NCBI GenBank assembly: GCA_003599475.1
Contig: QZKK01000117.1
Span: 1-10,400, forward strand
DNA: 10,400 nucleotides
Reading direction: 5' to 3'
DNA from: Desulfobacteraceae bacterium
GTDB taxonomy: Bacteria; Desulfobacterota; Desulfobacteria; Desulfobacterales; SURF-15
Part shown: positions 1-10,400 of the stretch, piece after piece
How the letters are laid out: every line of letters begins with the position of its first letter
Position numbering within the stretch: the stretch's first letter is position 1
Translations under genes and position numbers: made by a program
Notes under the pieces: model-generated
What the model was told of the DNA's origin: nothing
Seen by the model: the letters and a program-made list of their open reading frames with translations, nothing else
Databases searched by the model: none

Positions 1-549
1 AACCTCGATGAATTCCGAAAGCTTCTGCGGATCGGGGAAGATGACGCGCCCCTTCCACTCGGGTTTGGTCAGATCCCAGAGCGATTTGACCGGAGGCGAG
101 CTCATCTTTTTATTGTTGTAGATGAGCGCATCCACACTTGCGTGATGGACAAGAAGCGGTTCCCGATATTCTGCAGGGATCAGCGCTTCCAGATCCGAGG
201 GAACATAGTTGAAGACGAGTTTTTTGTTGAAAAGCTCGTTTACCACGGTGGACGGATCCTTCAGGAAGATCACGTCGGCAACGTAGTTTTTGGCCGCCTG
301 CTCGGCCAGGACCTTGGTCACGATCTCGGGTGAATCCATGTCGAAGCCTTTCACCTTGATTCCGGGATATTTTTCTTCGAAGGTCTTCCCGAATTTAAAC
401 ACCCGCGAGGAGTAAGAGTAGATATTGACCTCTCCTTCCTGTTTGGCCGCCTGATAGAGCGCCTCCTCATTGAAAGGCTCGGCGCTTGCCGAAAACGAAA
501 AAAACAAAACGAGAAGTACCGGAATTACGACCGAAGCTGCTTTTCTCAT
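1..549 (-). CDS. ABC transporter periplasmic solute-binding protein, iron(III)-type (AfuA/FbpA-like), C-terminus cut by window edge
   Basis: The frame is open from an ATG at 549 to the window edge, giving 183 codons of a protein that would usually have about 330-350 residues. The N-terminus reads MRKAASVVIPVLLVLF followed by an ASA-type cleavage site near residue 23, a typical Sec signal peptide. The mature part starts with LYQAAKQEGEVNIYSYSS, then a KTFEEKYPGIKVKGF segment and a WDLTKPEWKGRV segment. These are characteristic of the COG1840 family of periplasmic binding proteins that feed ABC importers for ferric iron and some organic ligands. The start is supported by AGGAGG at 557-562, seven bases upstream. 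The substrate cannot be fixed from this half; the metal ligands of FbpA-like proteins lie mostly in the missing C-terminal part. Permease and ATPase genes would be expected further left, on the same strand. No functional link to the redox cluster on the right is evident. Confidence 0.85.
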   Translation of the reverse strand, partial: MRKAASVVIPVLLVLFFSFSASAEPFNEEALYQAAKQEGEVNIYSYSSRVFKFGKTFEEKYPGIKVKGFDMDSPEIVTKVLAEQAAKNYVADVIFLKDPSTVVNELFNKKLVFNYVPSDLEALIPAEYREPLLVHHASVDALIYNNKKMSSPPVKSLWDLTKPEWKGRVIFPDPQKLSEFIEV

Positions 550-1031
550 CGTGGATCCTCCTTCCATTCACAGTCATTGACTCCCCCGATCCTGCATTAG
601 GTAAGTTTGATGCCATCCGGGGATCTTGTCTAGGCACCGCTGCAGAAGGCGCCATATCGTAGATATGGAAAGAGACGTTAACAGGAAAATCGAAAGTAGT
701 AAAGGTAATTGTACCGGCTCGTTTTCCTTCCTTTTCGTCAACCGGTTCTGTCTTATTTTCGACTGGCGTGCTTTTTCAGGATCGCAGGTGAAGCCCCGGC
801 GCTGGACCTCCGAATAATAGGCGCTTGCGCTCGGTACGATGGAGTTGTTCGGAATGGCTAATTGCCCGCCGATCTTTTTTGCACGGCGGACGAATCGACG
901 GCCCACTCCTTGCTCTGGCTGATGATCATGTTGTTCGAACAGGCCTTTGCGGTGATATAGACGGAGCGCATGGTTAGCGCCACGTGCTCCTGCTCCAGTA
1001 CAAAATGCCGGATCAAGGGCAAGGGGATGCC
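550..1031. other. Gene-poor stretch, possible decayed reading frame on the minus strand
   Basis: No convincing gene is seen in these 480 bases. On the minus strand the frame of the upstream regulator stays open for 57 codons beyond its TAA stop (1032-1034), to a TAG at 858-860. A second frame, open from 906 to 574 (110 codons), takes over near a run of six T at 875-880. Read together across that run they would give a chain of about 150 residues with one hydrophobic segment (LPLLLSIFLLTSLSIS). I do not recognise the sequence, and neither frame has a good ribosome binding site. It could be a frameshifted remnant or simply chance open frame in GC-rich DNA. It presumably also holds the promoter of the solute-binding protein gene. 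Confidence 0.3.
652..668. promoter_or_regulatory. Perfect dyad symmetry, candidate operator
   Basis: CCATATCGTAGATATGG is a perfect inverted repeat with 7-base arms and a 3-base centre, about 103 bases upstream of the solute-binding protein start. Its size and symmetry suit a dimeric repressor site, but it matches no operator that I can name, and it is not followed by a T-run that would make it a terminator. Confidence 0.3.
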
Positions 1032-2420
1032 TTACCCGGGATCGGATACCATGACCCGTTTGAGATCGATTCCGTATTTTTTCATCCGGTTCCAGACGGT
1101 GACGCGGTTGATCCCCAAAACCCGCGCCGCCTCGCTCTGGTTGCCGTTGCTCTGGCGCAGTGCGCGAATCAGGGCCTTCTTCTCATCCATGCTTTGGGAA
1201 TGCCTCCATCCGGTTTCCGGTGTGCCCACCTCCCTTCGGGCATCCTGAAGCAGCGGCAGGTGATCGGGTTCGATCAAGCCCTTTTCCGCAATCACAAAGG
1301 CATACTCCAGGGCACTCTTGAGTTCCCGGACGTTTCCGGGCCATCGGTAGGCCATGACCTTTTCCATCGCTGCATGGGTAAGTCCGGTGATGTTTTTCCC
1401 GGTAGCGGATCGGATGCGCCGCATGAAGGCGTTGATCAAAAGCGGGATATCCTCCATCCGATCCCTCAATGGCGGCAGGTGGATCGGAATCACATTGATC
1501 CGAAAGAAGAAATCCTCCCGGAAGGTATTCTGTGCGATGAGCGCTTTGAGATCCTTATTGGTGGCGGTGATGATTCGCACATCGACGGAAATGGTGCGGT
1601 GATCTCCGACCTGTTCGAACTCCTTGGTTTCCAGAACCCGCAGCAGCTTGATCTGGATGGAAAGCGGAAGATCTCCGATTTCGTCCAGGAAGAAATCTCC
1701 GCCGTTTGCCGCTTCGAACCTCCCCTGGCGATGCCGGTAGGCGCCGGTGAAGGCTCCCTTGATGTGTCCGAACAGTTCGCTTTCCAAAAGCGCCTCGTTG
1801 AGGGCCGCACAGTTGAGTTGGACAAAGGGCTTGTCTCGCCGGGGCCCAAGCTGGTGGATGGCCTGGGCCACAAGCTCTTTGCCGCTGCCGCTCTCGCCGG
1901 AGACGATGACGGGAGCCTCACTGCGTGCGGCTTTGCGGATCACCTCGAACACCCGATGCATCCCTTCGGATTTGCCGATCAATCCGTAAAAGTCCCCTTC
2001 CATTTCCAGTCGACGGGAGAGCAGGTTGACCTCCCGATCCAGACGGTCCAGTTCCGAGATGTCGGTGATGGTCTCCACCGCACCGATGGGCTGCATCCGG
2101 TCGTCGGTCAGGATGGAGGCGTTTTTCAACGCTTTCAGGTGGCTCCCATCTTTTCGGACCAGCATGCACCGTTTGGTGACCTCCTTTCCCTTCTCAAAGA
2201 GCGAGCACCAGACCCCTGGTTTTTGCGTCGCCCTTTCGCAAGCATCGCAGTTTAAGACCGTGCAGGGCCTTCCGATGAGCTCATGGGAAAGATACCCCGT
2301 CAGCTTTTCGAAAGCCTGGTTCACCATCACGATGCTGCCGTCCATGCCGATCATGATCAGCCCCTCGTTCATGGTGTTGATGACTTTTTTCCAGTGCCGA
2401 TTCATCTCCTGTTCTTTCAT
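1032..2420 (-). CDS. Sigma-54-dependent transcriptional activator, PAS (Cys-rich) - AAA+ - Fis-type HTH
   Basis: An enhancer-binding activator that would hydrolyse ATP to open sigma-54 promoters. Numbering from the ATG at 2420 (462 residues): a PAS domain at about 7-120; the AAA+ domain from about 145, with Walker A GESGSGKE at 175-182, the sigma-54 contact loop GAFTGA at 222-227, Walker B ending in D246-E247, and the arginine-bearing FREDFFFRINV and PLRDRMEDIPLL segments; and a Fis-type helix-turn-helix at about 427-451 (NQSEAARVLGINRVTVWNRM). There is no receiver domain, so input is sensed by the PAS domain and not by phosphorelay. The PAS domain carries C53, C58, C61, C72 and C85, unusual for the fold, and could hold a metal or Fe-S centre or act as a thiol switch. 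A GTG at 2444 would add eight residues, but lacks a ribosome site; the ATG at 2420 follows a GGGGG run. It lies divergent to the redox cluster and next to a -24/-12 promoter, so it is the likely activator of that cluster. Confidence 0.93.
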   Translation of the reverse strand: MKEQEMNRHWKKVINTMNEGLIMIGMDGSIVMVNQAFEKLTGYLSHELIGRPCTVLNCDACERATQKPGVWCSLFEKGKEVTKRCMLVRKDGSHLKALKNASILTDDRMQPIGAVETITDISELDRLDREVNLLSRRLEMEGDFYGLIGKSEGMHRVFEVIRKAARSEAPVIVSGESGSGKELVAQAIHQLGPRRDKPFVQLNCAALNEALLESELFGHIKGAFTGAYRHRQGRFEAANGGDFFLDEIGDLPLSIQIKLLRVLETKEFEQVGDHRTISVDVRIITATNKDLKALIAQNTFREDFFFRINVIPIHLPPLRDRMEDIPLLINAFMRRIRSATGKNITGLTHAAMEKVMAYRWPGNVRELKSALEYAFVIAEKGLIEPDHLPLLQDARREVGTPETGWRHSQSMDEKKALIRALRQSNGNQSEAARVLGINRVTVWNRMKKYGIDLKRVMVSDPG

Positions 2421-2433
2421 ATGCCCCCGGGTC

Positions 2434-2471
2434 TGTTTAATCACCTGTTCGATTGTTTAAACACGTGTTTA
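2434..2471. promoter_or_regulatory. Putative activator binding site (UAS), overlapping palindromes and a 20-base-phased repeat
   Basis: TGTTTAA occurs at 2434-2440 and again at 2454-2460, exactly 20 bases (about two helical turns) apart. The second copy is part of two overlapping perfect palindromes, TGTTTAAACA (2454-2463) and TAAACACGTGTTTA (2458-2471). The block lies about 100 bases upstream of the -24 element at 2570, the usual range for enhancer-type sites of sigma-54 activators, and directly before the activator gene. That it is the site of the neighbouring activator is inference. Confidence 0.5.
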
Positions 2472-2499
2472 GATACCACATCCCAAAGCGGTATGGCAA
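2470..2499 (-). promoter_or_regulatory. Possible sigma-70 type promoter of the activator gene
   Basis: On the minus strand TTGCCA (2499-2494) and TATCTA (2475-2470) are separated by 18 bases, resembling -35 and -10 boxes. Initiation would fall near 2463, inside the TAAACACGTGTTTA palindrome, which would allow the activator to repress its own gene. Each box departs from consensus, so this is a weak call. Confidence 0.35.
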
Positions 2500-2568
2500 G
2501 GAGAACTTCGATTCAGTTTTTTTAGCATAATTCAATAGCTTAATCTGCCGGAGCCGGGCAACGGGCCT

Positions 2569-2584
2569 CGGCATGGCTGTTGCA
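2569..2584 (+). promoter_or_regulatory. Sigma-54 (-24/-12) promoter of the redox cluster
   Basis: CGGCATGGCTGTTGCA carries GG (2570-2571) and GC (2582-2583) separated by exactly ten bases, with the C-A of the -24 element and the TTGCA of the -12 element matching the sigma-54 consensus (TGGCACG-N4-TTGCW). It points towards the TusA-like gene and would give a leader of about 45 bases. The neighbouring gene encodes a sigma-54 activator with an intact GAFTGA loop, which strengthens the call. Confidence 0.65.
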
Positions 2585-2639
2585 GTCGGTCCCCCTTAAA
2601 GTCGGTGGTACAGGGACTTGGGGATCGAAAGGGAGTGGG

Positions 2640-2867
2640 ATGTCTAACAAAGCCGAGCTGGATCTTGCGGGGGTGGGCTGGCCGGTCTGCCTGCTGGAGT
2701 GCAAGCGAACCCTGAAGTCCATGCAGGCAGGCGATATCCTGGAGATCGCCCTTCAAGACCCCGATGCACTGGATGAACTGGTGACGATCGTTACCCGCTC
2801 GCCGGATCGGATCCTTGCAATCGATCCGGAACAGGGGGGCTACCGGATCCGAATCCGGAAGGGCTGA
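2640..2867 (+). CDS. TusA/SirA-family sulfur-carrier-like protein with altered CPxP motif
   Basis: A 75-residue protein with the length and pattern of the TusA/YedF/SirA fold: LDLAGVGWPVCLLECKRTLKSMQAGD in two overlapping parts (LDLAGVGWPVCLL, then ECKRTLKSM), a DILEIALQDPDALDEL strand-helix, and a C-terminal YRIRIRKG strand. TusA proteins carry persulfide sulfur on the cysteine of a CPxP motif. Here that position is W14 and the motif reads W14-P15-V16-C17, so a cysteine lies three residues later, with another at C21. The protein may therefore use C17 as sulfur acceptor, or may have a non-transferase role. The ATG at 2640 is chosen over a TTG at 2580 because it follows GGGAG at a good distance, gives the usual family length, and leaves the -12 promoter element outside the gene. 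It is the first gene after the -24/-12 promoter and 37 bases ahead of the HybA-like gene, suggesting that the operon handles sulfur compounds. Confidence 0.85.
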   Translation: MSNKAELDLAGVGWPVCLLECKRTLKSMQAGDILEIALQDPDALDELVTIVTRSPDRILAIDPEQGGYRIRIRKG

Positions 2868-2904
2868 TTGAACCGGATCAAATAGGTCGAACAAAGAGGA
2901 GGCC

Positions 2905-3828
2905 ATGGATAGAAGGGATTTTTTGAAAGCAGCGGGTTCTCTCGCCGTTGCAGCGCTTACGGGCAGAGCAAAAAACGCCGCCGCTTCTCCGGGGGGAGGA
3001 AACGAACTCGGCTGTCTGGTGGATACGACCCTTTGCGTGGGGTGCAGAAAGTGCGAGTCGGCGTGCAATCAGAGGCAGCACCTGGCCAAGCCGAAGGAAT
3101 CCTTCGACGAATTGACGGTGCTCGAAAATCCGCGGCGGCCGGATGAAACCTCTTATACCGTGGTAAACAAATACTACCCGAAGCACATCGGCTCCCTCAC
3201 CTGGCGGCATCGTCCGACATTTGTCAAGTTCCAGTGCATGCACTGCTCTGATCCGTCCTGTGTCTCCGCCTGCATCGTGGGGGCGTTGACAAAGGAAGCC
3301 TCGGGTCCGGTCACCTACGATGCCAAAAAATGCATCGGATGCCGTTACTGCATGGTGGCCTGCCCGTTCCAGATTCCCGCCTACGAATACCACAACGCAC
3401 TGACGCCACAGGTTCGCAAATGCAGCTTCTGCTACGATGCCGTAAAGGAAGGCGGGCTTCCCGGGTGCGTCCAGATCTGCCCGCGGGAAGTGATCGTGTT
3501 CGGAAATAGGGAAAAGCTTCTGGATCTTGCGCGCTGGAAAATGAAAAATCATCCCGGACGCTACGTGGACCACATTTACGGGGAAAAGGAGGTCGGCGGA
3601 ACCTCCTGGCTCTATCTTTCCGGAGAACCTTTCGAAACCATCGGTTTTCCGAAACTCGGAACCAAAGCCCCGCCGCGGCTGACCGAAGCCATCCAGCACG
3701 GTCTTTTCCAGTATTTTGCAGCCCCCGCCGGTCTTTTTGCGGTGCTGGGCGGCATCATGTGGACCACCAATTTCTACGATTCCAGGCGGAAGAACAATTC
3801 AAAGCCCGACGGAGGAGACATCCCATGA
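2905..3828 (+). CDS. HybA-like periplasmic ferredoxin-type protein, four [4Fe-4S] sites, Tat signal and C-terminal membrane anchor
   Basis: A 307-residue electron-transfer subunit. MDRRDFLKAAG at the N-terminus is a Tat signal (RRDFLK), followed by an alanine-rich stretch to about residue 27. Four cysteine quartets can hold four [4Fe-4S] clusters: C44, C47, C50, C54; C111, C114, C119, C123; C143, C146, C149, C153; and C173, C176, C188, C192. A hydrophobic helix at about 266-288 (GLFQYFAAPAGLFAVLGGIMW) anchors the C-terminus, as in HybA of E. coli hydrogenase 2. HybA-type proteins sit on the outer face of the cytoplasmic membrane and pass electrons to or from the HybB quinone subunit. The ribosome site AGAGGAGG at 2895-2902 supports the ATG at 2905. 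The stop overlaps the next start (ATGA at 3825-3828), so the two proteins are probably translationally coupled and form one complex. No hydrogenase gene is present, so the partner enzyme must differ. Confidence 0.92.
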   Translation: MDRRDFLKAAGSLAVAALTGRAKNAAASPGGGNELGCLVDTTLCVGCRKCESACNQRQHLAKPKESFDELTVLENPRRPDETSYTVVNKYYPKHIGSLTWRHRPTFVKFQCMHCSDPSCVSACIVGALTKEASGPVTYDAKKCIGCRYCMVACPFQIPAYEYHNALTPQVRKCSFCYDAVKEGGLPGCVQICPREVIVFGNREKLLDLARWKMKNHPGRYVDHIYGEKEVGGTSWLYLSGEPFETIGFPKLGTKAPPRLTEAIQHGLFQYFAAPAGLFAVLGGIMWTTNFYDSRRKNNSKPDGGDIP

Positions 3829-6800
3829 ACATGCATGAGCCGGCAGCCCCGGTCGAGGAGAAGTTTTTAACCCCCGGGGTCATGGTGATGCTGGCCTTTA
3901 TGGCCGTGGGCTTTGCCTTCACCGCAGTCCGGTTTCTTTTTGGAATCGGGGCTGTTTCCAACCTCAACAACCAGTTCCCCTGGGGAATCTGGATCGGAAT
4001 CGATGTGGCCTCCGGGGTGGCGCTGGCTGCAGGCGGCTTCACCACCGGCGCCATTGCTTACGTATTCAACCGGCAGCAGTATCATGCGGTCATACGGCCT
4101 GCGCTCTTGACCGCCATGCTGGGCTATACCTTCGTAGTCCTTGGGCTGCTGGTCGATATCGGCCGGTACTGGAACATCACAAGCCCCCTGATCAACCACA
4201 ACGGCAACTCGGTGCTCTTCGAGGTGGCCATGTGCGTCATGATCTACCTGCATGTCCTCTACATCGAATTCATTCCGATCGCAGTCGAGCGGTTCAAAGA
4301 CCGTGTGAACCTGCCGGGTTTCCTTGCCGCGTTCAACGGTCTGGTGGAACGGGTGCTCGACCTCGCCGACAAAATGCTCGGGAAGGTGATGTTTTTCTTC
4401 ATCATCGCAGGGATCGTACTCTCCTGCTTTCATCAGTCCGGCCTCGGCAGCCTCATGCTGATCGCCGCCTACAAGGTGCATCCCCTGTGGTACACGCCGG
4501 TTCTGCCGCTTCTTTTTCTCTTGTCTGCCTTTGCCGCCGGATACCCCATGGTCACCTTCGAGTCGATCATCGTCGCCAAATCGTTCGGCCGGAAGCCGGA
4601 GATGGAGGTTCTGACCCCGCTTGCCCGATACATGCCCGTCCTGATGGGGCTCTATCTGGCCGCAAAGCTTTCGGACATGGCGGTACGGGGCACCTATGTG
4701 TACCTGCTGGACGGAACGGTTCAAACCAATGCCTTTATCGTGGAGGTCCTCTTCGGGGTTATCCTCCCGTTTGTCCTGCTGCTCTTTAAAAAGGTGCGGC
4801 GGTCTCCGGGGTGGCTGTTTTTTGCCTCCACCGCCTTTATCCTGGGGATTCTTTTCAACCGGATCAACGTCTTTGTGGTCAGCTTCACGCCTCCGTATGT
4901 GATTACCGGCTATTTCCCGTCCGTAGGAGAGATGGCCATCACCGCCGGCTTCATCGCGGGGCTGATGTTTCTGTACCGGGTTTTCGTATTCATCTTCCCG
5001 GTCCTGGGGGCCCACCCTCGGAAGATGTCCACTGCGCTTCTGCTGATCTTTCTTTTTTCCGCACTCCTGGGGCGGCCTTCCGCCGATGCCTCGGAGGCCG
5101 CAGATTCCGGGAAGCGGCCGCTTCCGGCCGCAGCAAAGATCATCCCGTCCATGGAAGATGCCCCGGCGGTGCACATCATCGACCACCCGAGCGTCAATGC
5201 GCTGAGCGACCTGTACGAAGGGGTGCGCTTCATGCACCGGAAGCACGCAAACGTTCTCAAGGACTGCACTCTCTGTCACCACCGGATTCCCCGCGAAGAG
5301 GGGGACACCTACGGGATGCCGGCAACCCTGCAGCTCCTGCGGGAAAAAGAGATCGTTCCCTCCGGGTGTGCGGTATGCCACGGAACTCCCTTCAACGAGA
5401 AGCAGCTTCACACCCCGGGCCTCAAAGGGGCGTTTCACCAGTTGTGCATGGACTGCCACCAGGAATCCGAACAGGTCCCCCACGCCCGGGGGCCCGTGAT
5501 CCACAGCGCGATGGTGCGCGGGCCGATCGCCAGGACGCTCGACACCCGAGCCCCTACAGACTGTCTGGCCTGCCACCCCAGGCGGGTTCCGGACCACAAA
5601 GAACTGGTGAAGCTTAAAGAAAGCCCGGACGCGTTGTCTGTCACCCAAAATTGTCTTTCCTGCCATGCCAAAGAAGGCGAAGCGATTTTAAAGACCTCCC
5701 ACTGGAACTGGCAGGGGCCCTCCCCTTTCACGGTGGGGCATGAGAAAAGGATCGATCTCGGCAAGCGGCACACCACCATCAACAATTTCTGCATCAACTT
5801 GAACGGAAACTGGGAGCGCTGCACAAGCTGCCATATCGGCTACGGCTGGAAGGACAAGGATTTCGATTTCGCCGACAAGAGCCGGATCGACTGCCTCGTC
5901 TGCCACGACACGACAAAGACCTACAAGAAGGCGCCTGCGGGAGCCGGCTTTCCCGCAGACGGCGTGGATCTTCTAAAGGTCGCTCAAAACGTGGGGCGGC
6001 CCGACCGGAGCACCTGCGGCACAAGCTGTCATTTCGTGGGCGGCGGCGGGGATGCAGTCAAACACGGCGACATGAACACCAACCTGGAAAAGCCAGGCGG
6101 AACCTGCGATGTGCACATGGGCACCGACGGCAAGGGGATGAACTTCAAATGCCAGGATTGCCACAAAACCCGCAACCACATGATCTCTGGCAGAAGCATC
6201 GCAGTTCCGGCCGCTGAAGGAGACCTCTCCTGCCAGTACTGCCATACGGACGACCCCCATCCGGAAGGCAGCCTGCTCTCGCAGCACTTGAACAGGCACA
6301 CCGAAACGGTTTCCTGCCAGACCTGCCACATCCCGATCTACTCCAAGTGCCGGCCCACCAAGGTTTCCTGGGACTGGTCTACTGCCGGAGACGACCGGAC
6401 CCCCGAAAAAGACAAGTACGGCAAACCGGTCTACGACAAAATGAAGGGAAGCTTCGTGTGGAAGGAATCCGCCAAACCGGATTACTACTGGTACAACGGA
6501 ACCGTCAAACGGCATCTGCTCGGGGACCGGATCGAAGAAGAAGGGACGACCGAACTGGCTCGGCCGGTGGGGAGCATCCGCGATCCGGCCTCCCGGATCT
6601 ACCCCTTCAAGCTCCATCGGGGAAAGCAGATCTCCGATGCGGTCTCTAAACGCTTGATCGTCCCCAAACTGTGGAACGGATACTGGAAACACTGGGATTG
6701 GAATCGGGCCGCAAAGGACGGAATGGCCGCCGCCGGCCTCGAATACAGCGGCAAGTATGAGTTTGTGGAAACGGTCATGTACTGGGGGATTACCCACGAG

Positions 6801-7106
6801 GTGATGCCGAAGGAAAACGCCCTTTCCTGCGCCAACTGCCACATCCCCCTGTCCAAAGCCCCTTACTGCGGAACGTGCCACCAGGAAAAAGAGGGGTTGG
6901 ACTTCAAGAACCTGTCCGAAAAGGGGATCGACTTCGAAGCCCTGTCGCGACAGGGAAGGGACGTGAGACACCTGAAGAATGCGACCGACTACATCGATTT
7001 CAAGGCGCTGGGCTACCCGGGGGATCCGATTGCAACCGGGGGCAGGTTCAGCAGGCTTCCGCTGGCAAAGGTGGAAGCAGACCTCCCTCGGACGAAAACA
7101 AGGTAA
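3825..7106 (+). CDS. Fusion of HybB/NrfD-type quinone membrane subunit with 13-heme-site cytochrome c of the octaheme tetrathionate reductase family
   Basis: One open frame of 1093 residues. Residues 1-400 are a polytopic membrane domain closely resembling HybB (FLTPGVMVMLAF, AVSNLNNQFPWGIWIGID, LVDIGRYWN, later helices to about 395), which exchanges electrons with quinone. At 401-425 a signal-peptide-like hydrophobic stretch (MSTALLLIFLFSALLG then ADA) probably forms one more membrane helix that puts the rest in the periplasm. Heme sites start at C481, C515, C541 and C580 (a four-heme N-terminal module), then C610, C666, C690, C731, C776, C803, C831 and C1002 (the OTR-like octaheme part) and C1015 (an extra heme); all are CXXCH except C731, which is CX3CH. 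OTR-type active-site residues appear as N653-x-x-C656 and D743-x-x-K746, the lysine expected to ligate the catalytic heme. OTR of Shewanella reduces tetrathionate, nitrite and hydroxylamine in vitro; the substrate here is unknown. HybB is usually a separate protein, so the fusion gives direct quinol-to-heme wiring. The start at 3825 overlaps the HybA-like stop. Confidence 0.9.
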   Translation: MNMHEPAAPVEEKFLTPGVMVMLAFMAVGFAFTAVRFLFGIGAVSNLNNQFPWGIWIGIDVASGVALAAGGFTTGAIAYVFNRQQYHAVIRPALLTAMLGYTFVVLGLLVDIGRYWNITSPLINHNGNSVLFEVAMCVMIYLHVLYIEFIPIAVERFKDRVNLPGFLAAFNGLVERVLDLADKMLGKVMFFFIIAGIVLSCFHQSGLGSLMLIAAYKVHPLWYTPVLPLLFLLSAFAAGYPMVTFESIIVAKSFGRKPEMEVLTPLARYMPVLMGLYLAAKLSDMAVRGTYVYLLDGTVQTNAFIVEVLFGVILPFVLLLFKKVRRSPGWLFFASTAFILGILFNRINVFVVSFTPPYVITGYFPSVGEMAITAGFIAGLMFLYRVFVFIFPVLGAHPRKMSTALLLIFLFSALLGRPSADASEAADSGKRPLPAAAKIIPSMEDAPAVHIIDHPSVNALSDLYEGVRFMHRKHANVLKDCTLCHHRIPREEGDTYGMPATLQLLREKEIVPSGCAVCHGTPFNEKQLHTPGLKGAFHQLCMDCHQESEQVPHARGPVIHSAMVRGPIARTLDTRAPTDCLACHPRRVPDHKELVKLKESPDALSVTQNCLSCHAKEGEAILKTSHWNWQGPSPFTVGHEKRIDLGKRHTTINNFCINLNGNWERCTSCHIGYGWKDKDFDFADKSRIDCLVCHDTTKTYKKAPAGAGFPADGVDLLKVAQNVGRPDRSTCGTSCHFVGGGGDAVKHGDMNTNLEKPGGTCDVHMGTDGKGMNFKCQDCHKTRNHMISGRSIAVPAAEGDLSCQYCHTDDPHPEGSLLSQHLNRHTETVSCQTCHIPIYSKCRPTKVSWDWSTAGDDRTPEKDKYGKPVYDKMKGSFVWKESAKPDYYWYNGTVKRHLLGDRIEEEGTTELARPVGSIRDPASRIYPFKLHRGKQISDAVSKRLIVPKLWNGYWKHWDWNRAAKDGMAAAGLEYSGKYEFVETVMYWGITHEVMPKENALSCANCHIPLSKAPYCGTCHQEKEGLDFKNLSEKGIDFEALSRQGRDVRHLKNATDYIDFKALGYPGDPIATGGRFSRLPLAKVEADLPRTKTR

Positions 7107-7433
7107 AAATCGAGTAAATCGTCATGACAAGGTGAATAGATAGAAATTCGAAATCCGAATATCGAAACTCGAAACAAATTCGAATGACTAAAATCAAAAT
7201 GACCAAAACAAGAGATCATTCCTGAATACTCTCCTCCCACAACCCCTTTCACCCGGGGGGGAGAGCTTTTCGTTCCCGGAGAGAACAAGTTTTAGAGTCT
7301 TAACTGTAATTGATTCGGGGGCTGAGAGGATAAGAGCCGTGTGTTTGGCTCTTTGGTTTTGAATTTTGAATTTGTTTCGGATTTCGGAATTTGAATTTCG
7401 GATTTGAAACGAAGTGTTAAGAGGAGGAAAAAT
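7107..7433. repeat. Repeat-rich intergenic spacer with imperfect inverted repeats of AT-rich GAAAC/TTCG units
   Basis: No gene is seen. Two low-complexity blocks, about 7141-7210 and 7355-7412, are built from short units such as GAAATTCGAAATCCGAA and its complement. They are imperfect inverted copies of each other: CGAAACAAATTC at 7170-7181 recurs inverted as GAATTTGTTTCG at 7368-7379. The base composition is markedly more AT-rich than the flanking genes. The middle (7231-7290) is GC-rich with short C and G runs. Similar filler occurs between genes of other Desulfobacterota as I recall, but I cannot confirm this here. The spacer may be a small non-autonomous repeat element inserted within the cluster. 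Confidence 0.5.
7332..7365 (+). terminator. Possible weak terminator hairpin
   Basis: AAGAGCC (7332-7338) pairs with GGCTCTT (7347-7353) around an 8-base loop, followed by T-rich sequence (TGGTTTTGAATTTT). The T-run is broken by GG and GAA, so termination would be partial at best. It lies between the fused cytochrome gene and the small cytochrome gene and could reduce expression of the downstream genes. Confidence 0.3.
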
Positions 7434-7775
7434 ATGTTTCGTCGCATCGGTTCCATCGTTCTGATTATTTTCTTTTTGGCCGCTTTCATCGGCATCGGGA
7501 TCGCTTCCGGCAAGGCCGACGGGAATGCCCGGAAGGGGAAATACCTTTTCCGGAAAAACTGCCGGTCTTGCCACCAGGAGGGCGGCTCCGCCAAGGATTT
7601 GAGCCCCGTGGACAAAACCCAGGCCGACTGGACCGCAGCCTTTGCCAAGGACGCGCAACAGTCCTTGGCCTGCAAGGCCGAATGGGAAAAGCAGTCCGCA
7701 TCGGACATCACCGACATCTACACCTACATGCACGATCATGCCTTCGATTCTCCCTCGCCGGCCAAGTGCAAGTAG
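7434..7775 (+). CDS. Small monoheme c-type cytochrome, exported
   Basis: A 113-residue protein with an N-terminal hydrophobic segment at about 5-24 (IGSIVLIIFFLAAFIGIGIA) serving as signal peptide or membrane anchor, and one heme site C43-R-S-C46-H47 in the pattern GKYLFRKNCRSCHQEGG, typical of class I cytochromes c. M99 in TYMHDHAF near the C-terminus is a candidate sixth heme ligand. C80 and C112 are extra cysteines that could form a disulfide in the periplasm. The ATG at 7434 has GAGGAGG at 7421-7427, seven bases upstream. Lying between the HybB-cytochrome fusion and the molybdoenzyme genes, it is well placed to shuttle electrons between them. It follows a 327-base repeat spacer and precedes a 190-base hairpin-rich one, so it may be transcribed or dosed separately from the genes on either side. 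Function beyond electron transfer is unknown. Confidence 0.85.
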   Translation: MFRRIGSIVLIIFFLAAFIGIGIASGKADGNARKGKYLFRKNCRSCHQEGGSAKDLSPVDKTQADWTAAFAKDAQQSLACKAEWEKQSASDITDIYTYMHDHAFDSPSPAKCK

Positions 7776-7965
7776 GCTCGATCGAAGTCAGAAAACTCGA
7801 TCCAATTTCCCCTCCCCACCTGAGAACACCTGGGGAGGGGAAGGGGTTCCCTCCCCTTCGATGGGGAGGGTTAGAGTCTGCCCCGTACTCGATACGGGGG
7901 GGTGAAAACGCTGAACGCTGAACACTGAATCCCGCCGAGGCGGGAAACACTTTATTGGAGGTATC
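7776..7965. repeat. Hairpin-rich spacer: stem-loops plus a 7-base tandem repeat
   Basis: Four stem-loops follow each other: TTCCCCTCCCCA/TGGGGAGGGGAA (7807-7842), CCCTCCCC/GGGGAGGG (7849-7870, loop TTCGAT), CCCCGTA/TACGGGG (7881-7899) and CCCGC/GCGGG (7931-7944, loop CGAG). Between the last two, CGCTGAA, CGCTGAA and CACTGAA stand in tandem at 7909-7929. None is followed by a T-run, so they are not ordinary terminators on the plus strand. They may stabilise mRNA ends, separate the transcripts of the cytochrome and molybdoenzyme genes, or be decayed repeat elements. Confidence 0.55.
7957..7962 (+). promoter_or_regulatory. Ribosome binding site fixing a GTG start
   Basis: GGAGGT stands four bases ahead of the GTG at 7966 and directly precedes the Tat signal-encoding codons. 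It is the only well-placed site, so the molybdoenzyme gene most likely starts with GTG. Confidence 0.75.
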
Positions 7966-10149
7966 GTGAACCGACCGATTTCCCGGCGGCAATTCATGAA
8001 GGTTTCGGGGGCGGCCGCGACGGCCGCGGCCCTGGGGGGACACACCCCGATCCTTCATGCACTGGTCTCTGAAGAAAACACCGCCCCCGGCGGCAAAACC
8101 TCCCGGCGCTACTCGATCTGCGACATGTGCTTCAACAAATGCGGTCTGATCGCCCGGGTGGACAAAAACGGGGTGGTGGTGAAGCTGGATCCCAACCCGA
8201 AATTCCGCAAATCCCGCGGGATGCTGTGCGCCCGTGGAAATGCGGGGATCCGGCAGCTCTACGATCCGGACCGGTTGAAGTATCCGCTGCTCAGAAAAGG
8301 AGAACGGGGCGAAGGCAAGTGGCACCGCCTCTCCTGGGATCAGGCCCTGGACCATGCCGCGGAGCGGATGAAAGAGATCGCGGAAAACTACACCCGCTGC
8401 GGCATGCTCTTTATGGCCGGAAGCGATCTGCAGTCCACCTTCGTCCATCGGTTTGCGGAGGTCTTCGGCTCCTACAACGTCATCTCGCATGAATCCAACT
8501 GACTGATCAGCAGAAACCGGGCGTTTCTGGACACCTTCGGCGAAGTCCCCGCTGCCGATCTGCGCCGCTGCAGGTACATGATCATGGCCGGCGCCAATCG
8601 CTTCGAGGCCCTGGTGACCCCCGACAGCATCGACATCGTGGCAGCCATGGAAGAAGGGTGTAAGCTGGTGGTCCTGGACCCCCGGTTTACCAAGACCGCC
8701 GCTCTGGCAAACGAGTGGCACCCGATCCGGCCCGGCACCGACATGGCTTTCTTCCTGGCGATCGCCCATGTCTTGATCGCAGAGAACCTCTACGACAAGA
8801 AGTTTGTGGCCGAAAAAACCTTCGGATTGGAAAAGCTTGCCGCGCATGTGGCGCAGTACTCTCCCGAGTGGGCCGAGCAGGAATGCGAGATCCCGGCCTC
8901 CGACATCCGCCGCATCGCACGGGAGCTGGCAAAGGCGGCCCCCGCGGCCGTCGTCTACCCGGGGAGAAGAAGCTCCGACTATACGGACTCCACCCAGATC
9001 CGCCGATCCTTTGCCATCGTAAACGCCCTGCTGGGAAACTGGGACAACCCCGGGGGCCTTGTCGCCGCCCGTCAGATCGGCCTCAAATCCCCCTCCTACG
9101 ACGCCCCCTTTTACGAAGACAATCCCGAAGGACGGGTGGACGCCGGGCGGGCGAAGATGATGTTCGAAGAGGAGGGCTCCTTCAAACACACCCGGAATGC
9201 GGTGATCGAGGGAAAGCCCTACCCCGTCAAGGGGTGGTTCACCTACAAGACAAACCCGATGCAGACAGGGGCCAACCGGGAGAAAACCGTCCGGATGATC
9301 CAAACGCTTGATTTTATGGTGACCGTCGATATCGCCATGAGCGATACGGCCTGGATGGCGGATCTGGTCTTGCCGGCTCCAAGCTACCTTGAGCGGCAGG
9401 ACCCCGCCTCCGCCGTGCAGGGGGCTTCCGCCTGTGCGTGCGTGGTGATGCGGGACCCGGTGGTCCCCGCCCTGTTCGAATCCAGACCGGTCTTCTGGAT
9501 CGTGACCGAACTGGCCAAACGGCTGGATCTTTCCGAATACTTCGATTTCACGATCGACTCCTTCCGGCAGGAACAGTTGAGCGAGCTTCCCGAAGCGATG
9601 GAGATGTTGAAGCGCGACGGGGTCTATCACACAAACAGCAAGGAATACGGCATCTACGATGGTAAGGTCTTTAAGACGCCCTCCAAAAAAATCGAACTCT
9701 ACAGCAAACGCTACGAAGAAGCGGGCATCGACCCGATGCCTGTCTACCGCCCGCCGAAGCCGGTGCCGCCGGGCCGCTTCAGGATCGTTGTGGGAAGAAA
9801 TGCCTATATCACCCAGGGCTCAAGCACCAACAACGATCTGCTGGCCGAGCTTGTGCCCGAAAACTGTCTCTGGCTTCATCCCGAATCGGCCGGGCGGCTC
9901 GACATCCGGCCGGGGGATACCGTCGAGGTGGAAAGCTCGGTGGGAAGCCAGCGGCTGAAGGTGCGCATCACCGAGGAGATCCGCGAGGATACCGTCTACA
10001 TGGACTCGGGCTTCGGGGCGCTCTCACGGGGACTTTCGCGTGTGCACGGAATCGGCGCCTGCATTTCGGCCGTATTGGAAGACGCAAGCGACGAGATCTC
10101 CGGCAACATGGCGATGCACGAAACCCTGGTTACGGTCCGCAAAGTATAG
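7966..10149 (+). CDS. Selenocysteine-containing molybdopterin oxidoreductase, PsrA/PhsA-like catalytic subunit, Tat-exported
   Basis: Read through an in-frame TGA at 8500-8502 as selenocysteine, this gives 727 residues, the usual size of polysulfide/thiosulfate-reductase-type catalytic subunits. The N-terminus has a Tat signal (SRRQFMKVSG at 6-15), then a [4Fe-4S] site C52, C55, C59, C88. The motif FGSYNVISHESN precedes U179, in the position where PsrA/PhsA-type enzymes carry the cysteine that ligates molybdenum (or tungsten). The chain then continues without a break through GANRFEALVTPDS, DPRFTKTAALANEWHPIRPG, GNWDNPGG and DLVLPAPSYLERQD to a C-terminal cofactor-binding domain (LDIRPGDTVEVES). 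The upstream 178 and downstream parts are halves of one family, and a hairpin follows the TGA. An ordinary nonsense mutation is the alternative. Substrate is uncertain: sulfur compounds are likely, but arsenate, selenate or formate enzymes are related. The gene is followed nine bases later by its presumed iron-sulfur partner. Confidence 0.9.
8500..8502 (+). other. In-frame UGA codon read as selenocysteine (U179)
   Basis: The frames on both sides of this TGA are the same, and both match one molybdoenzyme family with no residues missing. The codon occupies the conserved metal-ligand position (ESN-U-LISRN). A TGA next to a compact hairpin, in a family in which related enzymes use selenocysteine, makes recoding much more likely than mutation. 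Confidence 0.85.
8511..8529 (+). promoter_or_regulatory. Putative bacterial SECIS hairpin
   Basis: CAGAAAC (8511-8517) pairs perfectly with GTTTCTG (8523-8529) around a 5-base loop CGGGC. It begins eight bases after the UGA and its loop begins 16 bases after it. Bacterial SECIS elements lie inside the coding region immediately after the UGA and usually present G in the first two loop positions for SelB; here G is the second loop base. The fit is good, but SelB binding is not shown. Confidence 0.7.
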
Positions 10150-10158
10150 GGGAAAAAA

Positions 10159-10400
10159 ATGGGAATGAAGCAGTACGCCATGTTCATCGACACCGCCCGC
10201 TGTTTCGACTGCAAGGCCTGCATGGTCGCCTGCAAGGTGGAAAACCGGGTCCCTGCAGGCCTTTGGAGAAACTGGATCCGCCATACGGGCGGTGAAAAGG
10301 GGAAGCGGACCCGGTTTCAGCCGGGCCAGTGCATGCAGTGCGATTCCCCCTCCTGTGTGGCCGCCTGCCCTGTGAAGGCCACCTACAAGGGGAAAGACGG
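10159..10400 (+). CDS. Iron-sulfur subunit, PsrB/NrfC-like, partner of the molybdoenzyme; C-terminus cut by window edge
   Basis: Eighty codons are visible before the window ends. The N-terminal part carries C15, C18, C21 and C25 in a CX2CX2CX3C quartet (CFDCKACMVAC) and C58, C61, C66 and C70 in a CX2CX4CX3C pattern (CMQCDSPSCVAACP), the first half of the usual four-cluster arrangement of PsrB, NrfC and DmsB proteins. There is no Tat or Sec signal, as expected for a subunit that is co-exported with its Tat-bearing catalytic partner. The start at 10159 follows GGGG at 10149-10152; the gene lies nine bases after the molybdoenzyme stop, so both are one transcription unit. It would carry electrons between the molybdenum site and a membrane subunit or the cytochromes upstream. 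A membrane anchor (PsrC/NrfD-like) may follow to the right, or the HybB-type fusion protein may serve instead. Confidence 0.88.
   Translation, partial: MGMKQYAMFIDTARCFDCKACMVACKVENRVPAGLWRNWIRHTGGEKGKRTRFQPGQCMQCDSPSCVAACPVKATYKGKD

Follow-up and report, generated by a model that had tools for sequence, protein, structure and literature searches.

A gene joining a HybB/NrfD-type membrane domain to an OTR-type multiheme cytochrome in a Desulfobacteraceae bacterium

The octaheme tetrathionate reductase (OTR) of Shewanella oneidensis (1sp3) is a stand-alone octaheme protein, and in the Ohc, Hmc, and Tmc systems the cytochrome is encoded by a separate gene. A membrane "cytochrome b subunit" encoded beside an OTR has been noted before: Thermosulfurimonas dismutans has such a pair (TDIS_1882/1883), for which tetrathionate reduction has been proposed (PMC4911364). 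Multiheme/NrfD complexes are known as well, among them the octaheme/quinone complex (Ohc) of sulfate reducers (PMC4287179). Here we analyze a stretch of 10,400 nucleotides from a Desulfobacteraceae bacterium (assembly GCA_003599475.1, contig QZKK01000117.1, positions 1 to 10,400 of the forward strand; hereafter "the window"), in which one gene, at 3825..7106 on the plus strand, joins a HybB/NrfD-type quinone subunit domain to a large OTR-type multiheme cytochrome. We propose, at what we regard as an even chance, that it encodes the single precursor of a quinone-linked periplasmic reductase, in which a HybB subunit and a cleaved cytochrome would cooperate, the OTR core would carry out sulfur chemistry, and a neighboring PhsA/PsrB pair would be fed by the same hemes. 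Such an enzyme would link OTR-family cytochromes to the menaquinone pool and would bear on how they receive electrons, and what they act on, outside Shewanella.

The fusion frame starts with an ATG at 3825, directly preceded by GGAGGAG, and runs through 1093 codons without an internal stop to the stop codon at 7104-7106; its assignment as a fusion of 1093 amino acids relies on the open reading frame, on Pfam and NCBIfam models, and on homologues. Residues 1-398 (3825..5018) form a membrane domain with ten predicted helices, which matches Pfam NrfD (PF03916) at residues 44-351 with 82.8 bits (cut-off, 25.8) and also has the NrfD/PsrC fold; this domain filled the VIA-align fold list obtained for the fusion. 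The HybB model NF008133 covers residues 7-395 with 351.7 bits and the HmcC model NF045714 reaches 271 bits on the same domain, both below their equivalog cut-offs (450 and 550, respectively). The cytochrome belongs to the OTR family, as stated in an initial annotation made from the letters alone: TIGR04315 (octaheme_Shew) matches residues 590-1007 with 527 bits, above the cut-off of 375, and in the same protein as NrfD, Pfam recognizes Cytochrome_cB at 846-1007 (215 bits), a class III cytochrome c at 450-556, and a cytochrome c7 at 772-835. The count of 13 hemes in that annotation also holds, with 12 CXXCH motifs and one CX3CH (CGTSCH at 731), and what it described as a 690-residue cytochrome is indeed a multiheme OTR, which we can now refine as a modular protein composed of a signal-like junction, a four-heme domain, an eight-heme core, and one extra heme. 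The tetraheme domain (residues 440-590, 5142..5594; motifs at 481, 515, 541, and 580) is c3-like and akin to the last, C-terminal c3-like domain of HmcA. The OTR-type core (residues 590-1012, 5592..6860) carries eight motifs between 610 and 1006, at 610, 666, 690, 731, 776, 803, 831, and 1002, and the thirteenth motif (residues 1015-1019, 6867..6881) lies beyond it. Within the core, Lys746 (codon 6060..6062) aligns with Lys153 of S. oneidensis OTR (1sp3), which we take to be the unusual ligand of the catalytic heme, and Cys656 (TGC, 5790..5792) aligns with Cys64. The motif at residues 731-736 (6015-6032) is a CX3CH in most of 25 aligned relatives and a CXXCH in two of them (P0117 and P0122) and in 1sp3.

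A database search scored 7,998 candidates, of which 874 were homologues at E<=1e-3. Among the 120 matches listed, identity was 67-83% and query coverage 90-100% over lengths of 990-1113 amino acids (two are named "partial"), and PF03916 and PF11783 occurred together, by eye, in all 120. The records of these homologues are titled either "Ni/Fe-hydrogenase cytochrome b subunit" or "octaheme c-type cytochrome", so that a fusion is filed under the name of one half or the other, which calls for caution in annotation. A scan of Genome Taxonomy Database (GTDB) contigs, from which the best 80 of 560 relatives gave loci, widened the comparison; OTR segments were located by custom profiles, with TGA read through, in the window and in loci L001-L088. 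Of 87 such segments, 40 are in frame with NrfD and 47 are not fused. The window belongs to a clade of 25 loci, 23 of which, the window included, are fused, the other two (L022 and L077) being cut by contig ends. A second fused kind comprises 17 loci with record titles from Acidobacteria, Myxococcota, Planctomycetota (L044), Aminicenantes (L076), and Deltaproteobacteria, and in a third group of 37 loci the parts are on separate genes, as the initial annotation supposed to be the rule. A separate NrfD gene is found in 32 of these 37 split loci; four others start right at the edge of a contig, and for L070 the 8 kb upstream contain no NrfD gene. Single-frame fusions are also present, by eye, in at least 5 of 395 evenly drawn genomes of the phylum of Desulfocarbo, in at least 9 of 297 acidobacterial genomes, and in at least 3 of 193 myxobacterial genomes, counting frames that contain all or nearly all of the profile, with 2 to 4 candidates at most scored per genome; one of the myxobacterial fusions consists of two matches in one 1109-amino-acid frame, and another ends at position 1008. 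The two parts are thus far from always separate in relatives of the window gene.

In a tree of 85 OTR cores, from which L021 and L041 were left out as OTR segments under 300 residues, the 37 split rows form a single clade (support, 100/100) that is sister to the adjoining window clade (24 rows, 97/94; L022 is counted there as fused, and L077 is labeled "alone" since its contig begins within the gene). The acidobacterial-type fusions (16 rows, 100/99) fall outside both, with stand-alone OTRs as outgroup. This topology requires equal numbers of steps for one fusion followed by a later split and for two fusions, and it is the two junction types, described below, that speak for two separate fusion events.

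In the window, the junction (residues 399-422, 5019..5090) consists of RKM, a hydrophobic core, and ADA, a likely signal peptidase I site lying after residue 422. Junctions of the window clade mostly show a Pro, a Lys or Arg, a Met, some 12-19 uncharged residues, and usually AxA thereafter. We examined the window sequence together with the 120 listed homologues by pattern rules rather than with a trained predictor: the hydrophobic core is present in all 121 sequences, a Met occurs within 8 residues past the last helix in 114, and a strict AxA follows the core in 86 (84 with a different junction rule), compared with 177 of 1,005 hydrophobic segments from within the membrane domain. The junction therefore resembles, by these rules, the FbcH type, an internal signal peptide with a signal peptidase I motif. 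It is also far more variable than the helices, the mean pairwise identity among 25 sequences being 0.23 for residues 402-426 and 0.69-0.92 for the ten helices. Positively charged residues (Lys plus Arg) number 17 in the even loops and 3 in the odd loops, with helix limits set by hand, which puts the N and C termini of the ten-helix domain on the cytoplasmic side and would place the cytochrome outside. Because the junction is signal-peptide-like and so variable, signal peptidase probably cleaves at the join in the window clade, and a precursor that yields two subunits is no less likely than one chain. The junction offers a natural case for studying how a respiratory subunit may be processed by way of an internal signal peptide.

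The initial annotation proposed instead a single-chain oxidoreductase; one gene and one frame stand, while the single chain is put in doubt by the cleavable-signal-peptide anatomy of the window-clade junctions, and the heme-staining band of about 120 kDa that it predicted may not exist. If the chain stayed uncut, the junction would be an eleventh membrane helix, with the quinone site, the wire, and the catalytic site on one polypeptide, a possibility that we take seriously yet rank below cleavage. It is favored by the fusions of the acidobacterial/myxobacterial kind (L023-L036, L040, L041, L044, and L076), where the join is a membrane-anchor-like helix and a strict AxA is seen at only 5 of 17 loci; in the window itself, a 16-residue run free of charged residues and Pro would suffice for a tight anchor. 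Against these points stand the strict AxA at 19 of 23 window-clade loci, the low identity of the junction, and an AlphaFold model built with 71 sequences (five acidobacterial or window-clade rows left out; mean predicted local distance difference test score [pLDDT], 76.3), in which residues 393-434 score below 50 and the helix spans only ten residues; a model from 25 close sequences had a mean pLDDT of 46.9 and was unusable. The AxA rule is itself imperfect even where a genuine N-terminal signal would be expected, as only 14 of 32 split cytochromes with a hydrophobic core show a strict AxA at the N terminus (2 more lack the core, and for 3 of the 37 the upstream sequence was too short), which weakens the argument for cleavage; the motif is clearest in the window clade. 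An internal translation start at the junction Met was considered separately and is not favored: the ribosome-site energy at the junction ATG has a median of -3.6 kcal/mol (n=19), compared with -8.7 for gene starts (n=22) and -2.4 for other internal Met codons (n=686); 4 of the 23 loci lack an ATG at this point, and for L004, L021, and L026 the ATG chosen lies inside the hydrophobic core. Without a ribosome-binding site, this Met looks like the vestige of a start codon from a time when the cytochrome had its own gene.

The genes around the fusion, all on the plus strand except where stated, place it in a sulfur setting. Immediately upstream, a HybA/HmcB-like Fe-S protein with a twin-arginine translocation (TAT) signal (2905..3828) ends in a four-base overlap with the fusion ATG; it matches the HmcB model with 348 bits and the HybA model with 257.8 bits, below the equivalog cut-off of 263. 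It is preceded by a TusA-like sulfur carrier (2640..2867) and, on the minus strand, by a divergent sigma-54 activator with a PAS domain (1032..2444), each present in 14 of the 25 window-clade loci; the activator is divergent just upstream in 12 of the 25 and lies elsewhere in L007 and L022, and a crude pattern detected no sigma-54 promoter upstream of tusA. Downstream follow a monoheme cytochrome c with a hydrophobic N terminus (7434..7775; in 10 of 25 loci), a PhsA/PsrA-like molybdopterin enzyme with a TAT signal and an in-frame TGA (7966..10149), and a PsrB/TtrB-like Fe-S protein cut by the window end (10159..10400). The best solved relative of the PhsA-like protein is the thiosulfate/polysulfide reductase 2vpw_A (419 bits), and NF012032 gives 582.9 bits, below its equivalog cut-off of 694. 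Across the window clade, we counted HybA-like proteins at 21 loci, PsrB-like proteins at 17, rhodaneses at 8 (L016 weak), TorD-like chaperones at 6, and a close PhsA-like enzyme at 15, including the window and excluding weak matches at L017 and L026; Pfam confirmed the rhodanese domains, the TorD-type chaperone family, and the Fe-S protein on the relatives tested. The 37 split loci have a HybA-like protein in 32 cases, the activator in 21, TusA in 11, and a rhodanese in 2 (weak), and among the 17 acidobacterial-type loci 12 have a HybA-like protein, an Fe-S gene lying just upstream of the fusion in 12. No HmcE/F-like protein and no hydrogenase was detected among the eight window frames scanned. 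At the other edge of the window, positions 1-567 (minus strand) hold the start of an SBP_bac_8 extracellular solute-binding protein, cut by the window edge.

In a sediment acidobacterium, otr transcripts rose 36-fold at day 8 with tetrathionate, the change at day 1 not being significant (PMC8528874); the primer of that published gene has no match in our 98 loci. Taking these transcripts together with the sulfur gene setting and the features described above, the fusion most probably encodes a menaquinol-dependent reductase that acts on tetrathionate or related sulfur compounds, its direction and substrate both being inferred. Our working hypothesis is that the ribosome would make one chain, whose HybB part would insert as ten helices; the junction would then export the cytochrome, and signal peptidase I would cut after residue 422, leaving two subunits that would stay together with HybA. 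Menaquinol would donate electrons at HybB, from where they would pass through the clusters of HybA and then via the tetraheme domain to the OTR core. The built-in tetraheme domain could act as the OTR donor, as proposed for the Shewanella tetraheme cytochrome, which binds OTR weakly (Kd, 1.6 mM; PMC4484225). At the core, Cys656 (Sec in some relatives) would act with the Lys-ligated heme to cleave the S-S bond in tetrathionate or a similar sulfur compound, and the thiosulfate so formed could be passed to the PhsA/PsrB pair of the same gene row, which would be fed via the same hemes and the monoheme cytochrome; no membrane subunit was found beside the pair. Sulfane sulfur would be handled by rhodanese and TusA. 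More tentatively, and in our judgment rather unlikely in its full form, this would amount to a two-headed complex from a self-splitting precursor, with one menaquinol entry and two centers in series, OTR cutting tetrathionate with a Cys/Sec-assisted Lys-heme and the same hemes feeding PhsA/PsrB, which would reduce the resulting thiosulfate. An OTR beside a PhsA-like enzyme and TusA, with rhodaneses in relatives, suggests how sulfate reducers and related bacteria might handle tetrathionate and thiosulfate in sediments.

Several observations weigh against this proposal. Among the 20 window-clade loci whose sequence extends 3.5 kb or more downstream, PhsA is present in 15 and a close PhsA is missing from 5; none of the 37 split loci gave a PhsA match, and the 17 acidobacterial-type loci gave one weak match (L034). 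In 10 of the 87 OTR rows, a residue other than Cys or Sec occupies position 656, and 2 rows have a gap; six of the 17 acidobacterial-kind loci have a non-Cys residue there and one has a gap. The direction of electron flow can also be questioned, since HybAB takes part in hydrogen oxidation and TusA and rhodaneses occur in sulfur oxidation too. Moreover, Ohc has been proposed to pass electrons from the periplasm to the quinone (PMC4287179). The same complex might thus run in reverse, oxidizing thiosulfate, sulfide, or another reduced compound in the periplasm and reducing menaquinone, in an Ohc-like manner or in sulfur disproportionation. We consider this doubtful, as the TorD-like chaperone and the PhsA-like enzyme indicate a reductase row and the acidobacterial otr transcripts are raised by tetrathionate. 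An ammonifying nitrite or hydroxylamine reductase is improbable: S. oneidensis OTR does reduce both compounds in vitro (PMC4484225), which also tells against a sulfur substrate, but the neighbors of the fusion are sulfur genes, and the Cys/Sec exchange at the active site would seem to fit thiol chemistry better.

Equally improbable, in our view, is that the octaheme core is a mere wire to PhsA or to outside acceptors, with no catalysis of its own. This alternative draws on a shortened fusion of 623 amino acids that ends before the OTR core and retains HybB and four hemes; it occurs in two genomes, one represented by L037 (5665-7533) and L090 on the same contig (G109) and the other by L089 (G073). 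At L037 it is flanked, as judged by eye, by TusA-, HybA-, monoheme-, PhsA-, PsrB-, and rhodanese-like frames, with PhsA adjoining. Either genome may carry an OTR elsewhere. A fusion without an OTR core is a further point against our proposal, and where it occurs the main catalyst may be PhsA, not OTR. Yet the Lys of the catalytic heme is conserved in 84 of the 87 OTR rows and Cys or Sec occupies position 656 in 75, and a mere wire would hardly justify the expense of Sec and a conserved hairpin. An assembly or frameshift artefact can be set aside as practically excluded, nothing having been found in its favor, given that the 120 listed homologues read through the junction with both domains over 90-100% of the chain and that fused frames also occur in genome collections, a conclusion drawn from sequence comparison.

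The window OTR has TGC at the position of Cys64 (5790-5792); among 80 OTR matches, this position is Cys in 41, another residue in 10, unaligned in 2, and an in-frame TGA in 27, which have TGA nowhere else in the match. Twenty-five of the 27 are split (among L045-L080) and two are fused (L015 and L016). The 25 split UGA genes share a 20-base sequence, 20 bases past the UGA, that could fold into a 7-bp hairpin with a GGC loop; of the 98 loci, these 25 and no others contain it (L092 differs at the first base). Mean hairpin energies are -8.6 for the 27 UGA genes and -3.6 for the 41 Cys genes, with a Mann-Whitney p of 4e-8 that is overstated since the rows are related; the four strongest single hairpins sit in Cys genes. 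In five genomes from which stand-alone OTRs with TGA were fetched (L091-L096), the TGA is at the Cys64 position in six of six, five of which have a hairpin of another class; these six come from at least 30 stand-alone OTR rows with one TGA in the sample of the Desulfocarbo phylum, and all six examined fit. Of 25 genomes, 22 contain a tRNA-Sec that scores above the cut-off (16 of the 19 that have a UGA OTR and all 6 that have Cys), as do 5 of 14 control genomes; G016, G023, and G025, which have a UGA OTR and no tRNA-Sec, may be incomplete or may count against Sec. At gathering scores, Rfam found four tRNAs and one sRNA in nine sources and no selenocysteine insertion sequence (SECIS) family. A table in a 2026 review lists TIGR04315 as a selenoprotein, "GenBank annotated" (PMC13188914), so that a Sec-containing OTR as such is on record. 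We conclude that the UGA at the active-site Cys of these 27 relatives is a probable selenocysteine codon, and this Cys-to-Sec exchange marks Cys64 as chemically important.

The PhsA-like gene of the window also contains an in-frame TGA (8500-8502), which 15 relatives replace by Cys (SHESN-C/U-L), and it probably encodes selenocysteine as a metal ligand. A hairpin after this UGA (8511..8529, plus strand; 7 bp, loop CGGGC, -7.4 kcal/mol) is a candidate SECIS; the stretch has no folding advantage over shuffled sequences (z 0.0 and 0.74), and among the 15 Cys relatives 11 have no qualifying hairpin and 2 have stronger ones. A plain listing of frames cuts UGA genes, the PhsA gene of the window among them, in two, which is a second reason for caution in annotation.

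We found no description of an NrfD/HybB-OTR fusion, of its signal-like junction, or of an OTR-PhsA row in the open-licence literature searched, which included PMC10504309, PMC8840924, PMC9386147, PMC6896113, and PMC13186404. The initial annotation was right on the domains, the family, and the heme number, and left out the HybA-like partner at 2905-3828, the PhsA-like second reductase, and the earlier reports on T. dismutans and Ohc. As described, the T. dismutans locus resembles the window in having an OTR gene near a many-helix membrane subunit and differs from it in that the genes are separate (PMC4911364).

The Ohc, Hmc, and Tmc complexes share with the window a multiheme cytochrome, an HmcB/HybA-like Fe-S protein, and an NrfD-type subunit; by kind, an octaheme cytochrome, an Fe-S protein, and an NrfD subunit are all present in the window, a possible parallel to Ohc. 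HybA and HybB of hydrogenase 2 are matched by models that recognize both window proteins, in each case below the equivalog cut-off (263 and 450). CbcL likewise has a quinone-side membrane domain and a multiheme cytochrome on one gene, with a membrane part that is a diheme b-type protein, not NrfD, and with no OTR core. In Geobacter, it is an inner-membrane cytochrome for low-potential acceptors (PMC8235581). With respect to processing, the closest parallel is FbcH; it and the window fusion are unrelated proteins, and cleavage in the window is a prediction. In Bradyrhizobium, FbcH is a cytochrome b/c1 precursor: one gene specifies the membrane and the periplasmic cytochrome subunits, which are separated by cleavage at an internal signal sequence. 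Relative to the stand-alone OTR of S. oneidensis, the window protein has four plus one more hemes, a HybB domain in the same gene, and an Fe-S partner next door. Finally, the window resembles PhsABC/PsrABC in that its PhsA best matches 2vpw_A and is followed by a PsrB-like gene, and its kin differ from those systems in that a crude hydropathy rule, applied to ten loci, detected no PsrC-type gene (a frame of at least 150 amino acids containing three or more hydrophobic segments) in the 2 kb around psrB; the HybB domain of the fusion may stand in for the PsrC-type subunit.

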